Part shown: positions 43,374 to 51,099 of the stretch, one piece after another
Layout of the letters: the number at the start of each line of letters is the position of its first letter
Position numbering within the stretch: the first letter of the stretch is position 1
Assembly: GCF_016592575.1 (NCBI RefSeq)
Contig: NZ_AP017470.1
Coordinates: 248,001 to 312,000 of the forward strand
Length of the DNA: 64,000 nucleotides
DNA from: Thermotomaculum hydrothermale
GTDB lineage: Bacteria > Acidobacteriota > Holophagae > Thermotomaculales > Thermotomaculaceae
Direction of reading: 5' to 3'
Position numbers and translations under genes: made by a program
The notes under the pieces: model-generated
Told to the model about the DNA's origin: nothing
Seen by the model: only the letters and a program-made list of their open reading frames with translations
The model's database searches: none

Positions 43374-44174
43374 ATGGTAAAAATAGTTGCAAGCGATATT
43401 GGCGGCACTTTAACAAATAATGAAAACAGAATTTCCGATTTTACAAAAAAGGTAATCCACACCCTTCCTGTCCCCTTTTGCTTTGTGACGGGGTTTAACA
43501 GGTTTATAGCCTTTAAATACTTTGATATGGTGGGGAAGGAAGATGCCTATATGATTGCCCAGAACGGGGCTTTTGTTTATCACGGCAGAAAGCTTTTAAT
43601 GTACTCACTGCTTGATAAAAGGTTTGTAAAGGCAATCGTTGATTTTGGACTGGAAAACAATTGCATAGCGAGGGTGTTTTGCACAGACAACAATGTGTAT
43701 TGCTTTGTGCCTGAAGATTACAATGAAGAACCGTTAAGGTGGGATAAGCCGATTTACAGGATTTTCAAGGGAAGTGTTGAAGATTTGCCTTCAGATGTAA
43801 TTCAGGTGGGATTTTTTGAAAGGGTTGAAAAGATTGAGAAAATAACTGAAAAAGCCATTGAAAAATTTGGTGAAATTGTAATGTTTGGCCCCAGACTATA
43901 CGGCACCCACCAGTGGCTTGAGTTTAACAATCCTGGGGCAAAAAAACACATAGCATTTAAAAAACTTGCAGAATACTTAAAGATTGATTTGAAAGATGCA
44001 ATTTACTGTGGTGACAATTACAACGATATTGAATTGTTGAAAATAGTTGGTGAGCCGGTGGTTGTTGGAGATGCAGATGATGAGATAAAGAAGTACGCAA
44101 AACATGTTGTTGATGCAGGTTACAACGACGGGGTGGCAAAGTTTCTTGTTGAATACTTCAACCTTAAAATTTAA
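43374..44174 (+). CDS. HAD-superfamily (Cof-like, IIB) hydrolase with altered motif I
   Basis: 266 residues. Fold motifs: motif I SDIGGTLT (Asp8), motif II FVTGFNR, motif III Lys region (AKKHIAFKKLAEYL) and motif IV YCGDNYNDIELL. The cap region matches class IIB sugar phosphatases. The second Asp of motif I (DxD) is Gly here, which normally provides acid/base catalysis for phosphatases, so activity may be changed or weak. TATTTT ends 7 nt before the ATG and no Shine-Dalgarno is visible. Convergent with the ureohydrolase gene, stops overlapping by 4 nt. Confidence 0.82.
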   Translation: MVKIVASDIGGTLTNNENRISDFTKKVIHTLPVPFCFVTGFNRFIAFKYFDMVGKEDAYMIAQNGAFVYHGRKLLMYSLLDKRFVKAIVDFGLENNCIARVFCTDNNVYCFVPEDYNEEPLRWDKPIYRIFKGSVEDLPSDVIQVGFFERVEKIEKITEKAIEKFGEIVMFGPRLYGTHQWLEFNNPGAKKHIAFKKLAEYLKIDLKDAIYCGDNYNDIELLKIVGEPVVVGDADDEIKKYAKHVVDAGYNDGVAKFLVEYFNLKI

Positions 44175-44881
44175 GAGATAAATTCTCTTCTCAAAACAGG
44201 TGCTTTTGTTAGTGCTTTTAAAAGCATGTTGTTTATCTTTTCGCTTTTTTGAATGTCAAACAGGTTGAAATCATCAGGTTCACCGCAAATATCAGCCCCT
44301 AAAATCTTTTCTTTCGGGATAATTTCAAGCAATTCAACAATCATTTCAGGGGAGAAATTCCCACCGTCCCAGTTTGTTTTAAGGAATTTTTCATCAAGAA
44401 TATCTTTATCAATTGATACATAAATCCTTTTTTCATTCTCCAATTCTTTTTCAAGTGCATCAGGGTTAAAGTCAATCACTTTAATTTTCGTGTTATTGGT
44501 TGATTCAATTTCTGGTTTAATAACTATAATTTTTTTAAGTAAAGGCAAGGTAATTGCATTGTTTAACCACGAACCGCAAGATATAAAATTTTTATCAAAT
44601 ACAGGCTGATTATCAAGGTGATTATCAAAAACAACGAGGGTAAACTCCTCTTTTATCCTTTTCAAAAATAGATAACTTAAATAGTGATAATCCCCTTTGC
44701 CTAAAAAGGTAATTAAGTGTTGTTTTTGTGGCAGTTTTTCTTCAATCCTCTTTAAAGTTTCAAATGTGGCCATTAGTTTTTTTTCAGGAATATCCCTTAA
44801 ATCAACACACTTAGCTTTTTTAAGAATGGATTTTTGCAGCAAGTAAGAGTTTTCTGTGTGCAATATGAGTACTGAAAACAT
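44171..44881 (-). CDS. Arginase/agmatinase-family (ureohydrolase) protein
   Basis: 236 residues, shorter than typical family members (about 290-320). Metal motifs are recognisable: GKGDYHYLSY in place of GGDHS, VFDNHLDNQP in place of DAHxD, and YVSIDKDILDEKF for SxDxDxxDP, with ADICGEPDD near the end. It may hydrolyse a guanidino compound or a related amide; substrate unknown because the specificity loops are short. The gene stands before the accessory island, transcribed away from it. Confidence 0.78.
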   Translation of the reverse strand: MFSVLILHTENSYLLQKSILKKAKCVDLRDIPEKKLMATFETLKRIEEKLPQKQHLITFLGKGDYHYLSYLFLKRIKEEFTLVVFDNHLDNQPVFDKNFISCGSWLNNAITLPLLKKIIVIKPEIESTNNTKIKVIDFNPDALEKELENEKRIYVSIDKDILDEKFLKTNWDGGNFSPEMIVELLEIIPKEKILGADICGEPDDFNLFDIQKSEKINNMLLKALTKAPVLRREFIS

Positions 44882-45121: not shown

Positions 45122-45150
45122 TTGAAGTTGTTATTTGTATAGTGTAAAAT
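45122..45150 (+). promoter_or_regulatory. Sigma-70 promoter of the methylase island
   Basis: TTGAAG (45122-45127), 17-nt spacer, TAAAAT (45145-45150). Start expected near 45157, just before GAGAGGG (45161-45167) and the small ORF. Confidence 0.5.
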
Positions 45151-45172: not shown

Positions 45173-45310
45173 ATGTATTTGTTAGAATTTTTAAATATTT
45201 ACAAATGCTATATATGTATGCAACTAAGAGATAAATATGTATTTAAAAATCTATGGGATTACAATGCGGAACATATTGAAATAAAAAAAGTATTAAATAA
45301 TGGCAATTAA
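45173..45310 (+). CDS. Small ORF leading the methylase operon
   Basis: 45 codons, ATG at 45173 to TAA at 45310, preceded by GAGAGGG at fitting distance and by a promoter. The peptide begins MYLLEFLNIYKCYICMQLRD and is rich in Tyr, Asn and Lys. It has no helix-turn-helix, so it does not look like a restriction-modification controller protein. It ends 11 nt before the methyltransferase start and may be a leader peptide or just the 5' leader. Confidence 0.35.
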   Translation: MYLLEFLNIYKCYICMQLRDKYVFKNLWDYNAEHIEIKKVLNNGN

Positions 45311-45321
45311 AGGGTTGTATA

Positions 45322-46587
45322 ATGAGAGTAAATAGTAAGCAATTGACTTATCTAGAATTATTCGCCGGGGCAGGTGGACTGGCCGAGGGCTTTTCAAGTG
45401 CCGGATTTACGCCAGTAGCATATGTAGAAATGGACAGATATGCCTCACTTACTCTTAAAACGCGAATTGTTTATCATTATCTTGTAAAAAAAGGAAAAGC
45501 GGGTATTTACACAAAATATTTGCAAAAGAAAATATCAAGAGAAGAACTTTATGGAATGGTCCCTAATATTGAATTAAACACAGTTATAAATGAAGAAATT
45601 AGTGAAGAAAATATTTACTATTTGATAGGTGTGATTCAGAATAAAATGAAACAGAAAAAAATAGAGAATGTAGATGTGATAGTTGGTGGGCCGCCCTGTC
45701 AGGCATACTCTCTTATTGGAAGAGCCAGGGATCCATACAGGATGAAAAATGATAGAAGAAATTACCTTTATCAGCTTTATGTTAAATTTCTGGAGGTGTT
45801 TAAACCAAAGGTTTTTGTATTTGAAAATGTCCCGGGATTGCTTTCAGCAGGGAATGGGAAACTATGGGAAGATGTGCAAAGGTATTTCAAAGAAGCGGGA
45901 TTTAAAATAGAATATAAAATCTTAAATGCCTATGATTTTGGTGTGTTACAAAACAGAAAAAGGATTATTGTTATTGGGTGGAGGATAGAATTAAATCTAG
46001 AATATCCTGAATTTGAAAAAGATTCCTATGTCGAAAAGTTCAATGTTAAGGAAGTATTTAAAGATCTTCCCCCTCTAAAACCCGGCGAAAAAATGTATAC
46101 TGGTGAATACATTGGAGAACCTTCTGAATATTTAAAATACTATGGGATAAGAAACAATGATGATATTCTCACCCTGCATATTGCAAGAAATCACAATGAA
46201 AGAGACAGGAGAATCTATAAATTATATATTGAAGCATGGATGAAAGAAAAAAGAAGGCCCGAATATAATGAACTGCCGGAAGAGCTTAAAACGCATAGAA
46301 ACAGAAAGGCATTTAAAGATAGATTTAAAGTTGTTGCTCCTGATTTACCATATTCTCAGACTATTGTAGCCCACCTTGGTAAAGATGGACATTATTTTAT
46401 ACATCCGGATATAAATCAACTTCGCTCAATTTCGGTAAGAGAGGCTGCCAGATTGCAATCTTTTCCGGATAATTTTTACTTTGAAGGACCCATGACTGCA
46501 ATGTTCCGTCAGATAGGAAACGCCGTTCCTCCGCTTATGGCACAAAAAATTGCTGAAAAAATAAAGGAGATGATAAATGCTTTATAA
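45322..46587 (+). CDS. DNA (cytosine-5)-methyltransferase
   Basis: 421 residues with all C5-methylase motifs: I (LELFAGAGGLAEGF), IV (VGGPPCQAYS, catalytic Cys126), VI (FVFENVPGLL), VIII (LQNRKRIIVIG), IX (REAARLQSFPD) and X (RQIGNAVPPLMA). The stretch between motifs I and IV is long (about 100 residues with charged helices). It transfers a methyl group from S-adenosylmethionine to cytosine C5 in a target that the variable region (about 240-350) recognises; the target cannot be read from sequence. First large gene of a four-gene operon with a GHKL/histidine-kinase protein, a receiver-like protein and a T:G glycosylase. It overlaps the next gene by 11 nt. No endonuclease gene adjoins it. Confidence 0.95.
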   Translation: MRVNSKQLTYLELFAGAGGLAEGFSSAGFTPVAYVEMDRYASLTLKTRIVYHYLVKKGKAGIYTKYLQKKISREELYGMVPNIELNTVINEEISEENIYYLIGVIQNKMKQKKIENVDVIVGGPPCQAYSLIGRARDPYRMKNDRRNYLYQLYVKFLEVFKPKVFVFENVPGLLSAGNGKLWEDVQRYFKEAGFKIEYKILNAYDFGVLQNRKRIIVIGWRIELNLEYPEFEKDSYVEKFNVKEVFKDLPPLKPGEKMYTGEYIGEPSEYLKYYGIRNNDDILTLHIARNHNERDRRIYKLYIEAWMKEKRRPEYNELPEELKTHRNRKAFKDRFKVVAPDLPYSQTIVAHLGKDGHYFIHPDINQLRSISVREAARLQSFPDNFYFEGPMTAMFRQIGNAVPPLMAQKIAEKIKEMINAL

Positions 46588-48769
46588 AGATGAACTCTCT
46601 TTTAGACCCAGGGCAAGGTTAATTAAGATAATTGGAGAACAACTTATATCCAGTGAGGTCATCGCGCTTGTAGAACTGGTTAGAAATTCTTATGATGCTG
46701 ATGCAACTGAAGTATTTATTAAATTAATTGATATACAGAATCCTGAGAAAGGAAAGATAATAATAGAAGATAATGGAACAGGAATGAGTCTTGAAAAAAT
46801 CAGGAATGTATGGTTAGAACCTGCCACACCTGATAAGAAAATGGAAGAATGCAAAAGATATAGCAAGTGTTTTAACAGAAAATTACTTGGAGAAAAAGGG
46901 ATCGGGAGATTTGCTGTGCATAAACTTGGAGAAAAAGTTAAATTAGTTACCAGAGCAACTATTGACTGCTTTGGAACTCTGGAAAATTATGAAACAGTGG
47001 TAGATATTAATTGGAATAAATTTTCTGAGGATAAGTATCTTGATGAAGTTAAAATAGAAATTGAAACTAGAACTCCTCAATATTTTTTGCAAAGGGGTGG
47101 AGTATATATAGAAATATCGAATATAAATCCATGGAAAGTGTCAACAATAGTAAATACAGTACGAAAACTTAAAGCACTTGAATCTCCTGATATTATTAGA
47201 AGAAGTGATAATTCTGATGGAAGCAAAACCGGTCAATTTAAGATGAAAATAGCGAGTAATAACTCTGAAATTCAGAAAGAAATAGATGCTGTCAAAAGTA
47301 TAAATGTTCTTCTTGAGTCAGCTTTTTATAAAATTCATGGAGTAGTAGATGAACAAGGCATTTTACACTTCACTTATTCATTCAATAGACCAGATTATCC
47401 AGAGCTTTCAAGAAGTATCCCGGGGGGAAAAATTGATTTAAAAGAATTCATCCTAAATTTTTTAGAGGAACTAAAAAAACTTTACGAGTCTAAGAACGAA
47501 ACTAATAAAGAGAAAAATCAAAAGAATTTTTATAAAGATATTTTTCCTGGCAAGTTTTATGTGGATTTTTATGTATGGGATCTTGATTCATCAGCTTTAA
47601 AAGTAGCAGGATTGCAGATGGAATACAAGACTGTTATCAAACCAAATGCAGGCGTTAGGGTTTATCGTGATGGATTCAGAGTTTGGCCTTACGGTGAAGA
47701 AGATGATGATTGGCTTGGGTTAGACCTCAGGAGATTAAACGCCCCAAAGGAAAGATTAATCAGCAGGAATCAAATAGTAGGATTTATAAATATATCTTCT
47801 GAAAGAAATCCACTGCTTATTGATCAGTCCAACAGAGAGGGATTGATAAAAAATACTCAATACGAGGTTTTCTACGAACTTGTGAAAGCTTCTCTAAAGC
47901 ATATGTCCAACCTTCGGAAGCAGGATAAAACAAAGATGGATAAAGCAAAAGAAAAGAGTAAATATGACGATGAGGTTACTCAAACTATTTCTAATCTTAA
48001 AAATAAGTTAAGAAGGAACAAGCATTATGATCTCTATAAAGAGGACGTAGAAAAAATTGAAAAGGTCTACAAAGAAAGAGTAACAGATATTCTGGATAGA
48101 TATATGCAGGCAGCTGCAATAGGAATTAGCTATACACTCCCTGTTCATGAATTGAATATCAGGTTTAAATCAATCAATTCTTTAATAAAAGAAATAGAAA
48201 AGAATCCTTTGTTTTTAAATGATTATATACGAGAACTGGAGAATTTAATTGAAAATACGCAGAATATAGTAAAAGCAATTGGTAATTTGATGCAAAGAAA
48301 GAAACGAAAAGAGGTTCTTCTATTAAAGGTTGTTAAAAATGCTATCAAAATAAAAGAAAGGGAATTAAAAGAATTTGATATTAAAGTTTCAATTGTCGGA
48401 GATCTCCAGCAAAAGGCAGTTATAATTGAGAATCTTGTAGGTACAGCCTTTCTTAATTTGGTAGATAATGCTATTTACTGGATCCGTGTGAAAAGAATGC
48501 AACTAAGAGAAAAAGGGATTTATTACAAAGGTATCATAGAAATAATATTGGGCGAAGAAGATGATAGACCTTTTATTACCATCAAAGATAATGGGACAGG
48601 TATAAAGGATCCAATTGAAATGCTCAAAGAACCTTACTACAGCAGGAAAGAGAATGGTTATGGACTCGGATTATATATTGTGGATAATATTATGACAAGG
48701 CATAATGGAAAGCTAGAAGCAAAAAATTGGAAAGAAGGAGCTGTTTTTAAATTAATATTTGAAAAATAA
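46577..48769 (+). CDS. GHKL ATPase fused to a histidine-kinase core
   Basis: 730 residues. The N-terminal GHKL domain is of the HSP90/MutL/MORC kind: N-box ELVRNSYDADA (34-44), G1 DNGTGM (65-70), G2 GEKGIGRFAVHKLG. A beta-rich middle follows (about 130-470; a transducer-like part with GVRVYRDGFRVWPYG). Residues about 510-580 form a DHp-like helical hairpin with an H-box LPVHELN (His524). The C-terminal HATPase is of kinase type: N-box LNLVDNAIYW, G1 KDNGTGI, G2 GYGLGLYIV. There is no membrane segment, so it is cytosolic. The next gene, 18 nt away, encodes a receiver-like protein, a natural phosphorelay partner. GHKL proteins of the MORC/paraMORC type are known neighbours of restriction-modification genes; the double ATPase is the unusual part. 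Confidence 0.88.
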   Translation: MLYKDELSFRPRARLIKIIGEQLISSEVIALVELVRNSYDADATEVFIKLIDIQNPEKGKIIIEDNGTGMSLEKIRNVWLEPATPDKKMEECKRYSKCFNRKLLGEKGIGRFAVHKLGEKVKLVTRATIDCFGTLENYETVVDINWNKFSEDKYLDEVKIEIETRTPQYFLQRGGVYIEISNINPWKVSTIVNTVRKLKALESPDIIRRSDNSDGSKTGQFKMKIASNNSEIQKEIDAVKSINVLLESAFYKIHGVVDEQGILHFTYSFNRPDYPELSRSIPGGKIDLKEFILNFLEELKKLYESKNETNKEKNQKNFYKDIFPGKFYVDFYVWDLDSSALKVAGLQMEYKTVIKPNAGVRVYRDGFRVWPYGEEDDDWLGLDLRRLNAPKERLISRNQIVGFINISSERNPLLIDQSNREGLIKNTQYEVFYELVKASLKHMSNLRKQDKTKMDKAKEKSKYDDEVTQTISNLKNKLRRNKHYDLYKEDVEKIEKVYKERVTDILDRYMQAAAIGISYTLPVHELNIRFKSINSLIKEIEKNPLFLNDYIRELENLIENTQNIVKAIGNLMQRKKRKEVLLLKVVKNAIKIKERELKEFDIKVSIVGDLQQKAVIIENLVGTAFLNLVDNAIYWIRVKRMQLREKGIYYKGIIEIILGEEDDRPFITIKDNGTGIKDPIEMLKEPYYSRKENGYGLGLYIVDNIMTRHNGKLEAKNWKEGAVFKLIFEK

Positions 48770-48787
48770 TATTGAAAGGGGGCTATA

Positions 48788-50236
48788 ATGATTCCAGGGA
48801 GTGCTCTGATAGTAGATGATAGATTAGAGCAGATAAAAGATTGTCTTAAAAATTCAAAAACTCTACTAAAATCAGAAAAAGAAGATATTAACAAAAAATT
48901 GGAAAACAAAGAATTAAATAAGCTTTTGGAGCTTATTTTGTATCTTAATCGAAAAGGTATACCTGTTACAATGTTTTCTTCAAATGATATTAATAATTTT
49001 GAGAATCTTATTAAAAACACTCGAAATATAAGACTCGTCTTTCTTGACCTCGATATAGACGGCGATGGAAAGGTTACTGATACTGATGAAGAAGTCATCA
49101 AACGTTTCATTGAAATATTAATAAAAAATCAAGGGTATTTCTTCCTATTTATTTTATCCAATCATAAAGAAAAATGGGAAAATGATATAAAGAGTGATTT
49201 AATACAAAAATATGAGTTTTTAAATCATATGAGTGGGGAACTGGACAAACAGGAAGATGTATTTAGTGTTATTTCAAACAAAATAAGAGAATTAAATTCC
49301 TTAAATATTATATATAGTTTTGAAAAAGAACTTAATAAAGCTCGTGATATCGTTGCAAAAAAATTTGTTGAATTTAATAAAGAAACTTGGGAATACCTTA
49401 TTTCTAAACAAAAAAAAGAAGTAGGAGATTTATGGGAATTTGAAATGATTACCTTATTGCTAAATTTGATAAAGCAAAGTATGGAAAAAAGTAAAGTGTT
49501 CTTACGCCACTCTAACAATGATAATCAAGAAAATAATAATAGAGATAATAATAAAGAAGATTATGATAATAATAAGAATAACAATGATAATCAAGAAAAT
49601 AATGGTGATGAATCATATGATATTGAAATGATAAGTAAAATCTATAGAAGTTTTAATTATGTAGAGAATGTACCTAGCACTGTCATTTTTACTGGAAATC
49701 TATACAAAACTAATAAAAATGATGTAGAAAAAGAGTATGCTCTTATTTTGACTCCTGAATGTGACATAGCTCAAAGTAAAAATATAGATAGATATGTAGT
49801 GGTCTATGGATTTAATGTTAATGATAACTTTAACAACTCTTATAATAGAACCGATGATAATGTCCCTATATTTGTTAAGAGGGCTGGAAGGGATAGAAAT
49901 AATTCTGAGAAATGGAAAAGTTTCAACTCTCTCAATAAAATAAAAAATCCAAATCAATATATTTATTTGCTTCCATTTGCAATTGAAGAAGGTAAGAATA
50001 GCAATGGCCAAAAAAAAATCTATAAGCATATAGGATTGGATTTTAGAATAATAGAGTCAATATCTGCAAATAAAATGTATAGCTGGAAATTAAAATTAAG
50101 AGTCAATGACCCATTAATGGTGGATATTCAGAATAAATTCTCAAATCTTTTTAACAGAAAAGGAATACCATCACTATTACCAGAGAAAATGAAATTAATA
50201 TATGAAAAAACAGACGAAGATAAAACAAGTTCATAA
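48788..50236 (+). CDS. Receiver-like protein with Asn-rich linker and unknown C-terminal domain
   Basis: 482 residues with AAAGGGGG before the ATG. Residues 1-150 read as a response-regulator receiver: ALIVDD (Asp10, Asp11), RLVFLDLDI (likely phospho-Asp87), FLFILSN (Ser124). Asp87 is directly followed by DIDGDGKVTDTD, which fits an EF-hand/dockerin calcium loop. The segment between the acid pair and Asp87 is longer than usual. After a helical part, residues about 243-275 are an Asn/Asp/Glu linker with an internal repeat. The C-terminal domain (about 290-465) has ALILTPECDIAQSK, YIYLLPFAIEE, GLDFRIIESI and FNRKGIPSLLP; I do not recognise an enzyme. It is the candidate effector of the locus. 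It overlaps the glycosylase gene by 35 nt. Confidence 0.75.
   Translation: MIPGSALIVDDRLEQIKDCLKNSKTLLKSEKEDINKKLENKELNKLLELILYLNRKGIPVTMFSSNDINNFENLIKNTRNIRLVFLDLDIDGDGKVTDTDEEVIKRFIEILIKNQGYFFLFILSNHKEKWENDIKSDLIQKYEFLNHMSGELDKQEDVFSVISNKIRELNSLNIIYSFEKELNKARDIVAKKFVEFNKETWEYLISKQKKEVGDLWEFEMITLLLNLIKQSMEKSKVFLRHSNNDNQENNNRDNNKEDYDNNKNNNDNQENNGDESYDIEMISKIYRSFNYVENVPSTVIFTGNLYKTNKNDVEKEYALILTPECDIAQSKNIDRYVVVYGFNVNDNFNNSYNRTDDNVPIFVKRAGRDRNNSEKWKSFNSLNKIKNPNQYIYLLPFAIEEGKNSNGQKKIYKHIGLDFRIIESISANKMYSWKLKLRVNDPLMVDIQNKFSNLFNRKGIPSLLPEKMKLIYEKTDEDKTSS
49513..49603 (+). repeat. 25-nt direct repeat in the Asn-rich linker
   Basis: The same 25 nt, beginning TAACAATGATAATC, occur at 49513-49537 and 49579-49603, 66 nt apart and in the same reading frame, with AATAAT-rich DNA between them. 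Loss or gain of one unit would keep the frame. Confidence 0.85.
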
Positions 50237-50870
50237 TAATATTCTGGATTGGTTCAATCAATACGCCCGTGATTTCCCTTGGAGACATACAAAAGATCCC
50301 TATAAAATAATGATTGCAGAGTTTATGCTTCATAGAACAAGAGCGGAACAGGTTGTGCCAGTGTATAATGAATTTACAAAAAAATATCCAGATGTGTTTG
50401 CCCTGGTTTGCGCAAATTCAGATGATATAAGAAAGGTTACTGAGCATCTAGGACTTCACTGGAGAAGTGAACATTTTATAAAGTCTGCAAAATACATTGT
50501 AGAAAAACATAATGGTGAACTCCCTGAAGATTATAAAGATCTAAGAAAAATACCGGGTATTGGTGAATACATTGCTGGTGCTATATTAACAGTGTGTTTC
50601 AATAAACCCACTCCTGTTGTTGACAGTAATATAGCGCGGTTTATAAACAGGTTTTATGGATTGAATCTGAAAGGAGAAATCAGAAGAAAAAAAGAAATTG
50701 TACAGAAAGCTAAAGAAATATTTAATCATGATAACCCTGGTCAGTTACTGTTTGCAATGGTGGATTTTACCGCCCTTGTATGCAAACCACAAAAACCGAA
50801 TTGTGATTCCTGCCCTTTAAAGTTTTTATGCAGTCTAAACAAAGAGCAAAAGATAGTGGAAGAAAGTTGA
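50202..50870 (+). CDS. T:G mismatch DNA glycosylase (Mig/EndoIII-MutY superfamily)
   Basis: 222 residues of the HhH-GPD family. ARDFPWRHTKDPYKIMIAE begins the fold, the helix-hairpin-helix is KIPGIGEYIAGAI, the catalytic Asp is 141 (VVDSNIARF), and the Fe-S cluster is C194-X6-C201-X2-C204-X5-C210. At the position of the EndoIII lyase Lys the residue is Tyr123, as in Mig.MthI, the thymine-DNA glycosylase beside a GGCC methylase in Methanothermobacter; MutY has Ser there and a different MLQQT motif, here MLHRT. It should remove T from T:G pairs formed by deamination of 5-methylcytosine, protecting the host of the adjacent methylase. It starts inside the previous gene. Confidence 0.88.
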   Translation: MKKQTKIKQVHNNILDWFNQYARDFPWRHTKDPYKIMIAEFMLHRTRAEQVVPVYNEFTKKYPDVFALVCANSDDIRKVTEHLGLHWRSEHFIKSAKYIVEKHNGELPEDYKDLRKIPGIGEYIAGAILTVCFNKPTPVVDSNIARFINRFYGLNLKGEIRRKKEIVQKAKEIFNHDNPGQLLFAMVDFTALVCKPQKPNCDSCPLKFLCSLNKEQKIVEES

Positions 50871-51023: not shown

Positions 51024-51099
51024 GGGCCCGTAGCTCAACTGGTAGAGCTTCCGGCTCATAACCGGACGGTAGCAGGTTCGAGTCCTGCCGGGCCCACCA
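51024..51099 (+). tRNA. tRNA with CAT anticodon (probably elongator tRNA-Met)
   Basis: 76 nt forming a complete cloverleaf: acceptor GGGCCCG / CGGGCCC, D arm GCTC...GAGC, anticodon stem TCCGG / CCGGA with loop CTCATAA (anticodon CAT), T arm GCAGG TTCGAGT CCTGC, and an encoded 3' CCA. The start does not look like initiator tRNA because the first acceptor pair is matched. tRNA-Ile2 with a lysidine-modified CAT is the alternative. Confidence 0.95.

Follow-up and report, generated by a model that had tools for sequence, protein, structure and literature searches.

A candidate restriction-modification-like operon of Thermotomaculum hydrothermale with a kinase/receiver pair and a predicted MazF-fold output domain

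Proteins carrying GHKL ATPase domains of the paraMORC type have been linked to restriction-modification (R-M) gene neighbourhoods (Iyer et al., 2008; PMC2292703), and a kinase/receiver pair (HEF_HK/Response_reg_2) with ties to C5 methylases and Vsr, and with a relation to paraMORC, was described more recently (Bellieny-Rabelo et al., 2021; PMC8011034). The latter study offered, as a speculation, that signalling cascades might govern R-M systems, and listed no further known domain for the receiver proteins. Detocs (PMC11249213) sets the precedent of a two-component system that acts in defence by way of a lethal output. Here, these systems are compared with a four-gene operon of the bacterium Thermotomaculum hydrothermale, located at positions 45322-50870 of a 64,000-nucleotide stretch of its genome (the window; contig NZ_AP017470.1, 248,001 to 312,000; coordinates below are window positions unless another contig is named, and all features lie on the plus strand). 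The four open reading frames (ORFs), arranged head to tail, encode a C5-cytosine DNA methyltransferase, a GHKL sensor-kinase-like protein, a receiver-like protein and a Mig-type T:G mismatch DNA glycosylase. An even chance is given to the reading that they form an R-M-like defence operon: restriction would fall to an effector of MazF fold, phosphorelay-controlled and probably abortive, and the glycosylase would repair deaminated 5-methylcytosine. A preliminary description of the locus, made from the sequence alone, had called it possibly undescribed, which does not hold for the core, as both the combination of kinase/receiver pair, C5 methylase and Vsr (PMC8011034) and the link between GHKL proteins and R-M systems (PMC2292703) were already published. 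In the open-licence literature searched, no report was found of a MazF-fold output, of a swap with a BbrUII-type enzyme or of an exchange of Mig for Vsr in such operons; relative to that literature, the new elements are the prediction of a MazF-fold output domain and the occupation of the restriction slot by the kinase/receiver pair.

The identities and coordinates assigned to the four genes in the preliminary description were confirmed by Pfam and NCBIfam matches, motif residues and the predicted receiver fold. The genes are tightly packed: the methylase (45322-46587, 421 residues) overlaps the GHKL gene (46577-48769, 730 residues) by 11 nucleotides, and the receiver gene (48788-50236, 482 residues), which follows after a gap of 18 nucleotides, overlaps the glycosylase gene (50202-50870, 222 residues) by 35. 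The methylase is a member of Pfam family DNA_methylase (1e-64) with all catalytic motifs intact (FAGxGG, PPCQ, ENV and QNRKR, together with the C-terminal motifs). It also matches the PADLOC model DrmMII at 6e-175, and DISARM was considered from this match and rejected, since the eight flanking window genes that were scanned gave no PADLOC match at all, and hence no DrmA, DrmB or DrmC. As the preliminary description had stated, no standard nuclease is recognised in the operon by Pfam, NCBIfam or PADLOC, nor did a conventional restriction endonuclease fold turn up in any of its products.

Homologues were gathered with the GHKL protein and its alignment from genomes of the same phylum, plasmids, named bacterial genomes and virus-like contigs. 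The receiver-like protein had been proposed as bait, and as a tblastn query against plasmids and 396 genomes of the phylum it gave no meaningful matches; as this protein diverges too fast, the search was turned to the GHKL gene, which yielded 95 distinct kinase loci. A PF19192-type receiver (locus L218), used as query, retrieved one plasmid record only, and a scan of viral contigs with the single GHKL sequence returned no matches, while the alignment query did find relatives there. At 85 of the 95 loci an ORF of 150-700 residues lies on the same strand no more than 200 nucleotides downstream of the kinase gene. Where the receiver is recognised by the window-type profile (30 loci), a C5 methylase is encoded within 5 kilobases in 27 cases and a Vsr gene is present in at least nine, in addition to an annotated vsr at L039 that was not caught by ORF picking. 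Common gene orders are methylase-kinase-receiver and methylase-kinase-receiver-Vsr (L060, L138), and one locus from another family of the phylum (L044) has the order methylase-kinase-receiver-glycosylase, identical to that of the window. Given the linkage of the kinase to the next ORF (85/95) and to the methylase (27/30), the association of the four genes is not due to chance, and the co-occurrence on which the preliminary description had staked its proposal is thus borne out.

The pair is not restricted to C5 methylases. Among the 26 upstream neighbours scanned at loci that lack one, 14 match N6_N4_Mtase and eight N6_Mtase; these neighbours being mostly amino-methyltransferases, the kinase/receiver pair goes with several kinds of DNA methylation. 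The pairs beside N4/N6 amino-methyltransferases (L047, L048, L065, L076, L142, L154 and others) represent a second branch of such systems. The pair is furthermore found with methylases on prophage-like contigs and plasmids.

The functional role of the pair is illuminated by two loci in which the outer genes are retained and the middle is changed. In a genome of the same genus (L277; genome G205, contig C49, 3742-7608), an orthologous methylase (69% identical to the window protein) and glycosylase (63%) bracket one GHKL protein of 630 residues, with no kinase/receiver pair. This protein matches NF050001 (BbrUII/HgiDII) at 1e-102 over nearly its full length, yet under the curated equivalog cut-off, and shows weak nuclease-family matches at its C-terminus. 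(A PADLOC PDC-S01 ATPase, DUF4143, is encoded about 2.4 kilobases beyond this operon.) At L044, the methylase and glycosylase are 68% and 67% identical to those of the window, compared with only 33% for the kinase and only 25% for the receiver, and the L044 kinase is closer (47%) to kinases of Paenibacillus (L059) and Cloacimonadota (L070). Since both loci keep the flanks and change the middle, the methylase and glycosylase appear as a stable frame that takes different middle modules, which suggests that the kinase/receiver pair acts as the restriction arm; the swap is the strongest evidence for such a role. It also supports, together with the predicted output fold discussed below, the earlier proposal of a GHKL sensor that relays phosphate to a receiver with an effector part. 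Both the window and the BbrUII/HgiDII and paraMORC systems combine a MORC/MutL-type GHKL ATPase with an adjacent cytosine methylase, and in L277 the BbrUII/HgiDII type occupies the very same slot. In contrast to BbrUII/HgiDII and VcSduA-type proteins, which carry their own nuclease domain, the window has a histidine-kinase half and a separate, putative receiver-effector.

The same identities could be taken to mean that the methylase and the repair gene are the real unit and that the kinase and receiver are degenerating or unrelated passengers, as the former are 63-69% identical across the three loci while the GHKL proteins share 19-33% and the receivers 25%. This is very improbable, however, because the kinase and receiver ORFs are intact, keep every signature residue and are packed with the flanking genes, and because the same pair stands beside methylases in dozens of distant genomes.

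The GHKL protein has a paraMORC/HEF_HK-type architecture, with an N-terminal MutL/MORC-type ATPase domain (HATPase_c_3, residues 29-147, 46661-47017; Pfam 3e-20), an H-box histidine, H524, within a VHEL motif (codon at 48146-48148), and a C-terminal ATP-binding domain of histidine-kinase type (HATPase_c, residues 621-727, 48437-48757; Pfam 9e-19). Ten homologues all retain H524 and, in both GHKL domains, the key residues of the ATP-binding motifs, among them E33, N37, D65, G67, G69, G105, G108 and G110 of the N-terminal domain. The description of the protein as cytosolic is based solely on family scans, in which no membrane-domain match was obtained and which did not include a transmembrane predictor. 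With the HEF_HK/Response_reg_2 pair the window shares the succession of HATPase_c_3, H-box and HATPase_c, the adjacent receiver gene, the upstream C5 methylase, the downstream gene in the Vsr position and the soluble nature of the proteins; it differs in that this last gene encodes a Mig-type glycosylase rather than Vsr, in the predicted MazF-fold output, and in the family models themselves. The window kinase does not match PF19191 (HEF_HK) at E<=1, only one of ten relatives giving a weak, sub-threshold match, and the window receiver does not match PF19192 (Response_reg_2). As these two models are missed, the window proteins are classed, from their sequences, as a divergent branch of the kind described in 2021 and not as members of the Pfam families.

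The N-terminal part of the GHKL protein also bears on an alternative in which restriction takes place at the DNA level: unmodified DNA would be gathered or remodelled by the GHKL protein, working as a MutL/topoisomerase-like clamp, and the output domain would be a divergent nuclease or a gyrase-type poison acting on DNA. Residues 18-130, and only these, match the GHKL part of BbrUII/HgiDII (NF050001) at 1.4e-17, and the N-terminal part matches MutL as well. CcdB, a gyrase-type poison, has a MazF fold, and the invariant Cys, Asp and Arg of the output domain, with the near-invariant Gln and Lys, could build a different active site. Set against this, the close structural matches of the output domain are the RNA-cutting toxins MazF and CptN, with no CcdB among the matches listed, and the family and defence models reveal no nuclease motif; we therefore regard a DNA-level mechanism as unlikely.

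No family in Pfam, NCBIfam or PADLOC is a credible match for the receiver-like protein, and its family profile gave only weak matches to PDB sequences, the best of which are receiver domains, with nothing convincing for the C-terminal domain. The N-terminal part (48788-49222) is nevertheless predicted to adopt the (beta-alpha)5 fold of a receiver (residues 5-141), in which the acidic pair (D10/D11), the phosphoacceptor (D87), the Ser/Thr position (S124) and the lysine (K141) are all present. Among 23 receiver proteins D10, D87 and K141 never vary, and either Ser or Thr stands at position 124 in each; fold and residues are thus those of the receiver of a canonical two-component pair. The receiver and output domains are connected by a helical linker, and an Asn/Asp/Glu-rich low-complexity stretch (residues about 246-275, 49524-49610), predicted to be disordered, is not seen in relatives. 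The layout of the receiver gene varies among loci: at L077, L081 and L161-L174 the protein consists of the receiver only (about 200 residues), and the next, separate ORF, of about 190-350 residues, may encode a stand-alone effector, and at L053, L075, L078, L080 and L163 receivers of 570-646 residues beside the kinase carry extra sequence without assignment.

For the C-terminal output domain (residues 283-460, 49634-50167) the structure prediction that had been called for was carried out, and a MazF/PemK toxin fold is well supported by the models. The AlphaFold model of the window protein has a mean predicted local distance difference test score (pLDDT) of 66, rising to about 80-90 in the ordered parts of the output domain, and its three best PDB matches in a Foldseek search are MazF toxins. 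The output domain of a compact, distant relative from Cloacimonadota (L070) was modelled in AlphaFold with a pLDDT of 87 and a predicted template modelling score of 0.84; all 50 of the 50 PDB matches listed for it are MazF-fold toxins (probability 0.98-1.00, best E 1.6e-3; template modelling scores on the target of 0.57-0.68 for the leading matches), and the best named viral matches are PemK/MazF proteins. The two models draw on common aligned relatives and are hence not fully independent. In the 396 genomes of the phylum the output domain occurs only beside these kinases, and an iterated profile search detected it in 53 proteins of the collected loci, including a Campylobacter plasmid type (L041). 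A similar 'PVCD' motif is present in the PF19192-positive receiver L218, which lies outside the reach of the output-domain profile. In all sequences C325, D326, R457 and G459 are present, and G303, Q329 and K331 are near-invariant.

Several observations weigh against the proposed toxin-like restriction arm. The catalytic Arg and Thr of MazF are not conserved, and the invariant residues of the output domain differ from the catalytic ones of MazF, so that the support extends to the fold and any RNase activity is putative. The domain has no sequence-profile match to PF02452 (MazF/PemK), and a profile-profile comparison with MazF proteins gave a probability of <1%, that is, no relation at the sequence level; the MazF relation is accordingly one of fold alone. 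The Foldseek matches have modest E-values (best 1e-3), few sequences stand in the alignments from which the models were built, and the window proteins, as noted above, miss the curated models of the pair. Furthermore, phosphotransfer, DNA sensing and phage defence are all matters of inference, and the operon could be regulatory instead of defensive. In that case the GHKL protein would sense DNA or nucleotide state and the receiver would control expression, for example of the methylase or of stress genes, through a C-terminal domain that binds nucleic acid and is no toxin. The architecture of a soluble kinase with a receiver, the 2021 speculation on R-M control (PMC8011034) and the missing MazF catalytic residues are in keeping with this view. 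We nonetheless consider a regulatory function improbable, as the output domain has a predicted toxin fold and a helix-turn-helix was not found, as the pair stands in for a restriction enzyme where both flanking genes are the same, which would not be expected of a pure regulator, and as methylases accompany it on prophage-like contigs and on plasmids.

The glycosylase is an HhH-GPD protein of MutY/EndoIII type (Pfam/NCBIfam) that matches Mig-Mth (1kea) at 4e-38, has four Fe-S cluster cysteines and lacks the C-terminal (8-oxoguanine) domain of MutY. By manual matching of positions from published motifs, F27, E42, R47, A50 and Y126 of Mig.MthI correspond to F25, E40, R45, A48 and Y123 in the window protein, Y123 and D141 being residues of the active site; of the specificity positions, A48 is Ala and not Val, and F184 stands where MutY has Gln182 and Mig has Leu187. 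Mig.MthI resembles the window enzyme also in the 4Fe-4S cluster, the missing MutY domain and the neighbouring C5 methylase, and differs from it in having L187 and in that the window gene belongs to a kinase/receiver operon. The Mig residues, the position in the slot that Vsr takes in relatives and the sister copy next to an ordinary restriction enzyme favour the reading of a T:G repair enzyme that would guard methylated sites against 5-methylcytosine deamination. The same three points led to rejection of the glycosylase as an effector (PADLOC 'type II nicking endonuclease'), and its position and the sister copy deprive it of value as evidence for a new defence step.

In the R-M-like reading, the C5 methylase very probably marks the recognition sites of the host. 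DNA that is unmodified or invading would be detected by the MORC/MutL-type ATPase clamp at the N-terminus of the GHKL protein, which would act either by itself or jointly with the methylase on DNA. The kinase half would thereby be switched on, H524 autophosphorylated and the phosphate passed to D87, both residues being present. The receiver would then release or activate the predicted MazF-fold domain, which most likely would cleave or block RNA, halting either the production of phage or the growth of the infected cell; this is the least certain step, and the target may alternatively be DNA or protein. The glycosylase, like Vsr in related operons, would take T out of the T:G mismatches that arise by deamination of methylated cytosine, as its residues and position suggest. 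The more far-reaching formulation, R-M without DNA cutting, in which the methylase defines self, a lack of methylation is read by the MORC/MutL-type GHKL kinase and a receiver-fused MazF-fold toxin is freed through a His-Asp phosphorelay, a toxin that is evolutionarily interchangeable with a restriction endonuclease, is put forward tentatively, as a somewhat doubtful proposition. Compared by description with Detocs, the operon is alike in outline, both having a kinase and receivers with a lethal output domain (predicted in the window), used for phage defence in Detocs and putatively so in the window. The window kinase and receiver have no PADLOC match. Detocs comprises three genes, its best known effector is PNP (ATP-degrading), and to our knowledge it has no methylase. 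With MazF, PemK and CptN toxins the window shares the predicted output fold; it differs in the lack of sequence similarity, in the catalytic residues and in the partner, a fused receiver where those toxins have an antitoxin.

The GC content of the operon is 26-35%, compared with about 34-38% across most of the surrounding window, and no kinase relative above threshold was detected in two genomes of the same genus and three of the same family; for these two reasons the operon looks acquired. It is followed by a tRNA-Met gene. In G205 the arginase/HAD block and the tRNA-Met/zinc-ribbon block (window flanks 44171-44881 and 51024-51099) are separated and neither adjoins the operon, which places the window operon at a rearranged junction, the empty-site comparison not being a clean one. 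The claim that the four genes share one promoter is only partly sustained: the tight packing agrees with it, while the single candidate, a weak site with 9/12 matches (TTGAAG-17-TAAAAT, 45122-45150), belongs to a class whose number in the region is within chance expectation and is separated from the methylase by a 45-codon ORF (45173-45310). This ORF, directly 5' of the methylase, has a plausible ribosome site and no family match; upstream in relatives, helix-turn-helix genes are found nearby (L062, L063), as is a 118-residue ORF without family match (L044).

The R-M-associated kinase/receiver pair became known in 2021 with no output function attached to it, and the MazF-fold prediction and the slot replacement now give a concrete, testable defence hypothesis. 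If it is correct, Vsr and Mig-type glycosylases would exchange as repair partners of C5 methylases, and two-component signalling and methylation-based self-recognition would be united in one system, in which restriction would be abortive instead of DNA-cutting.
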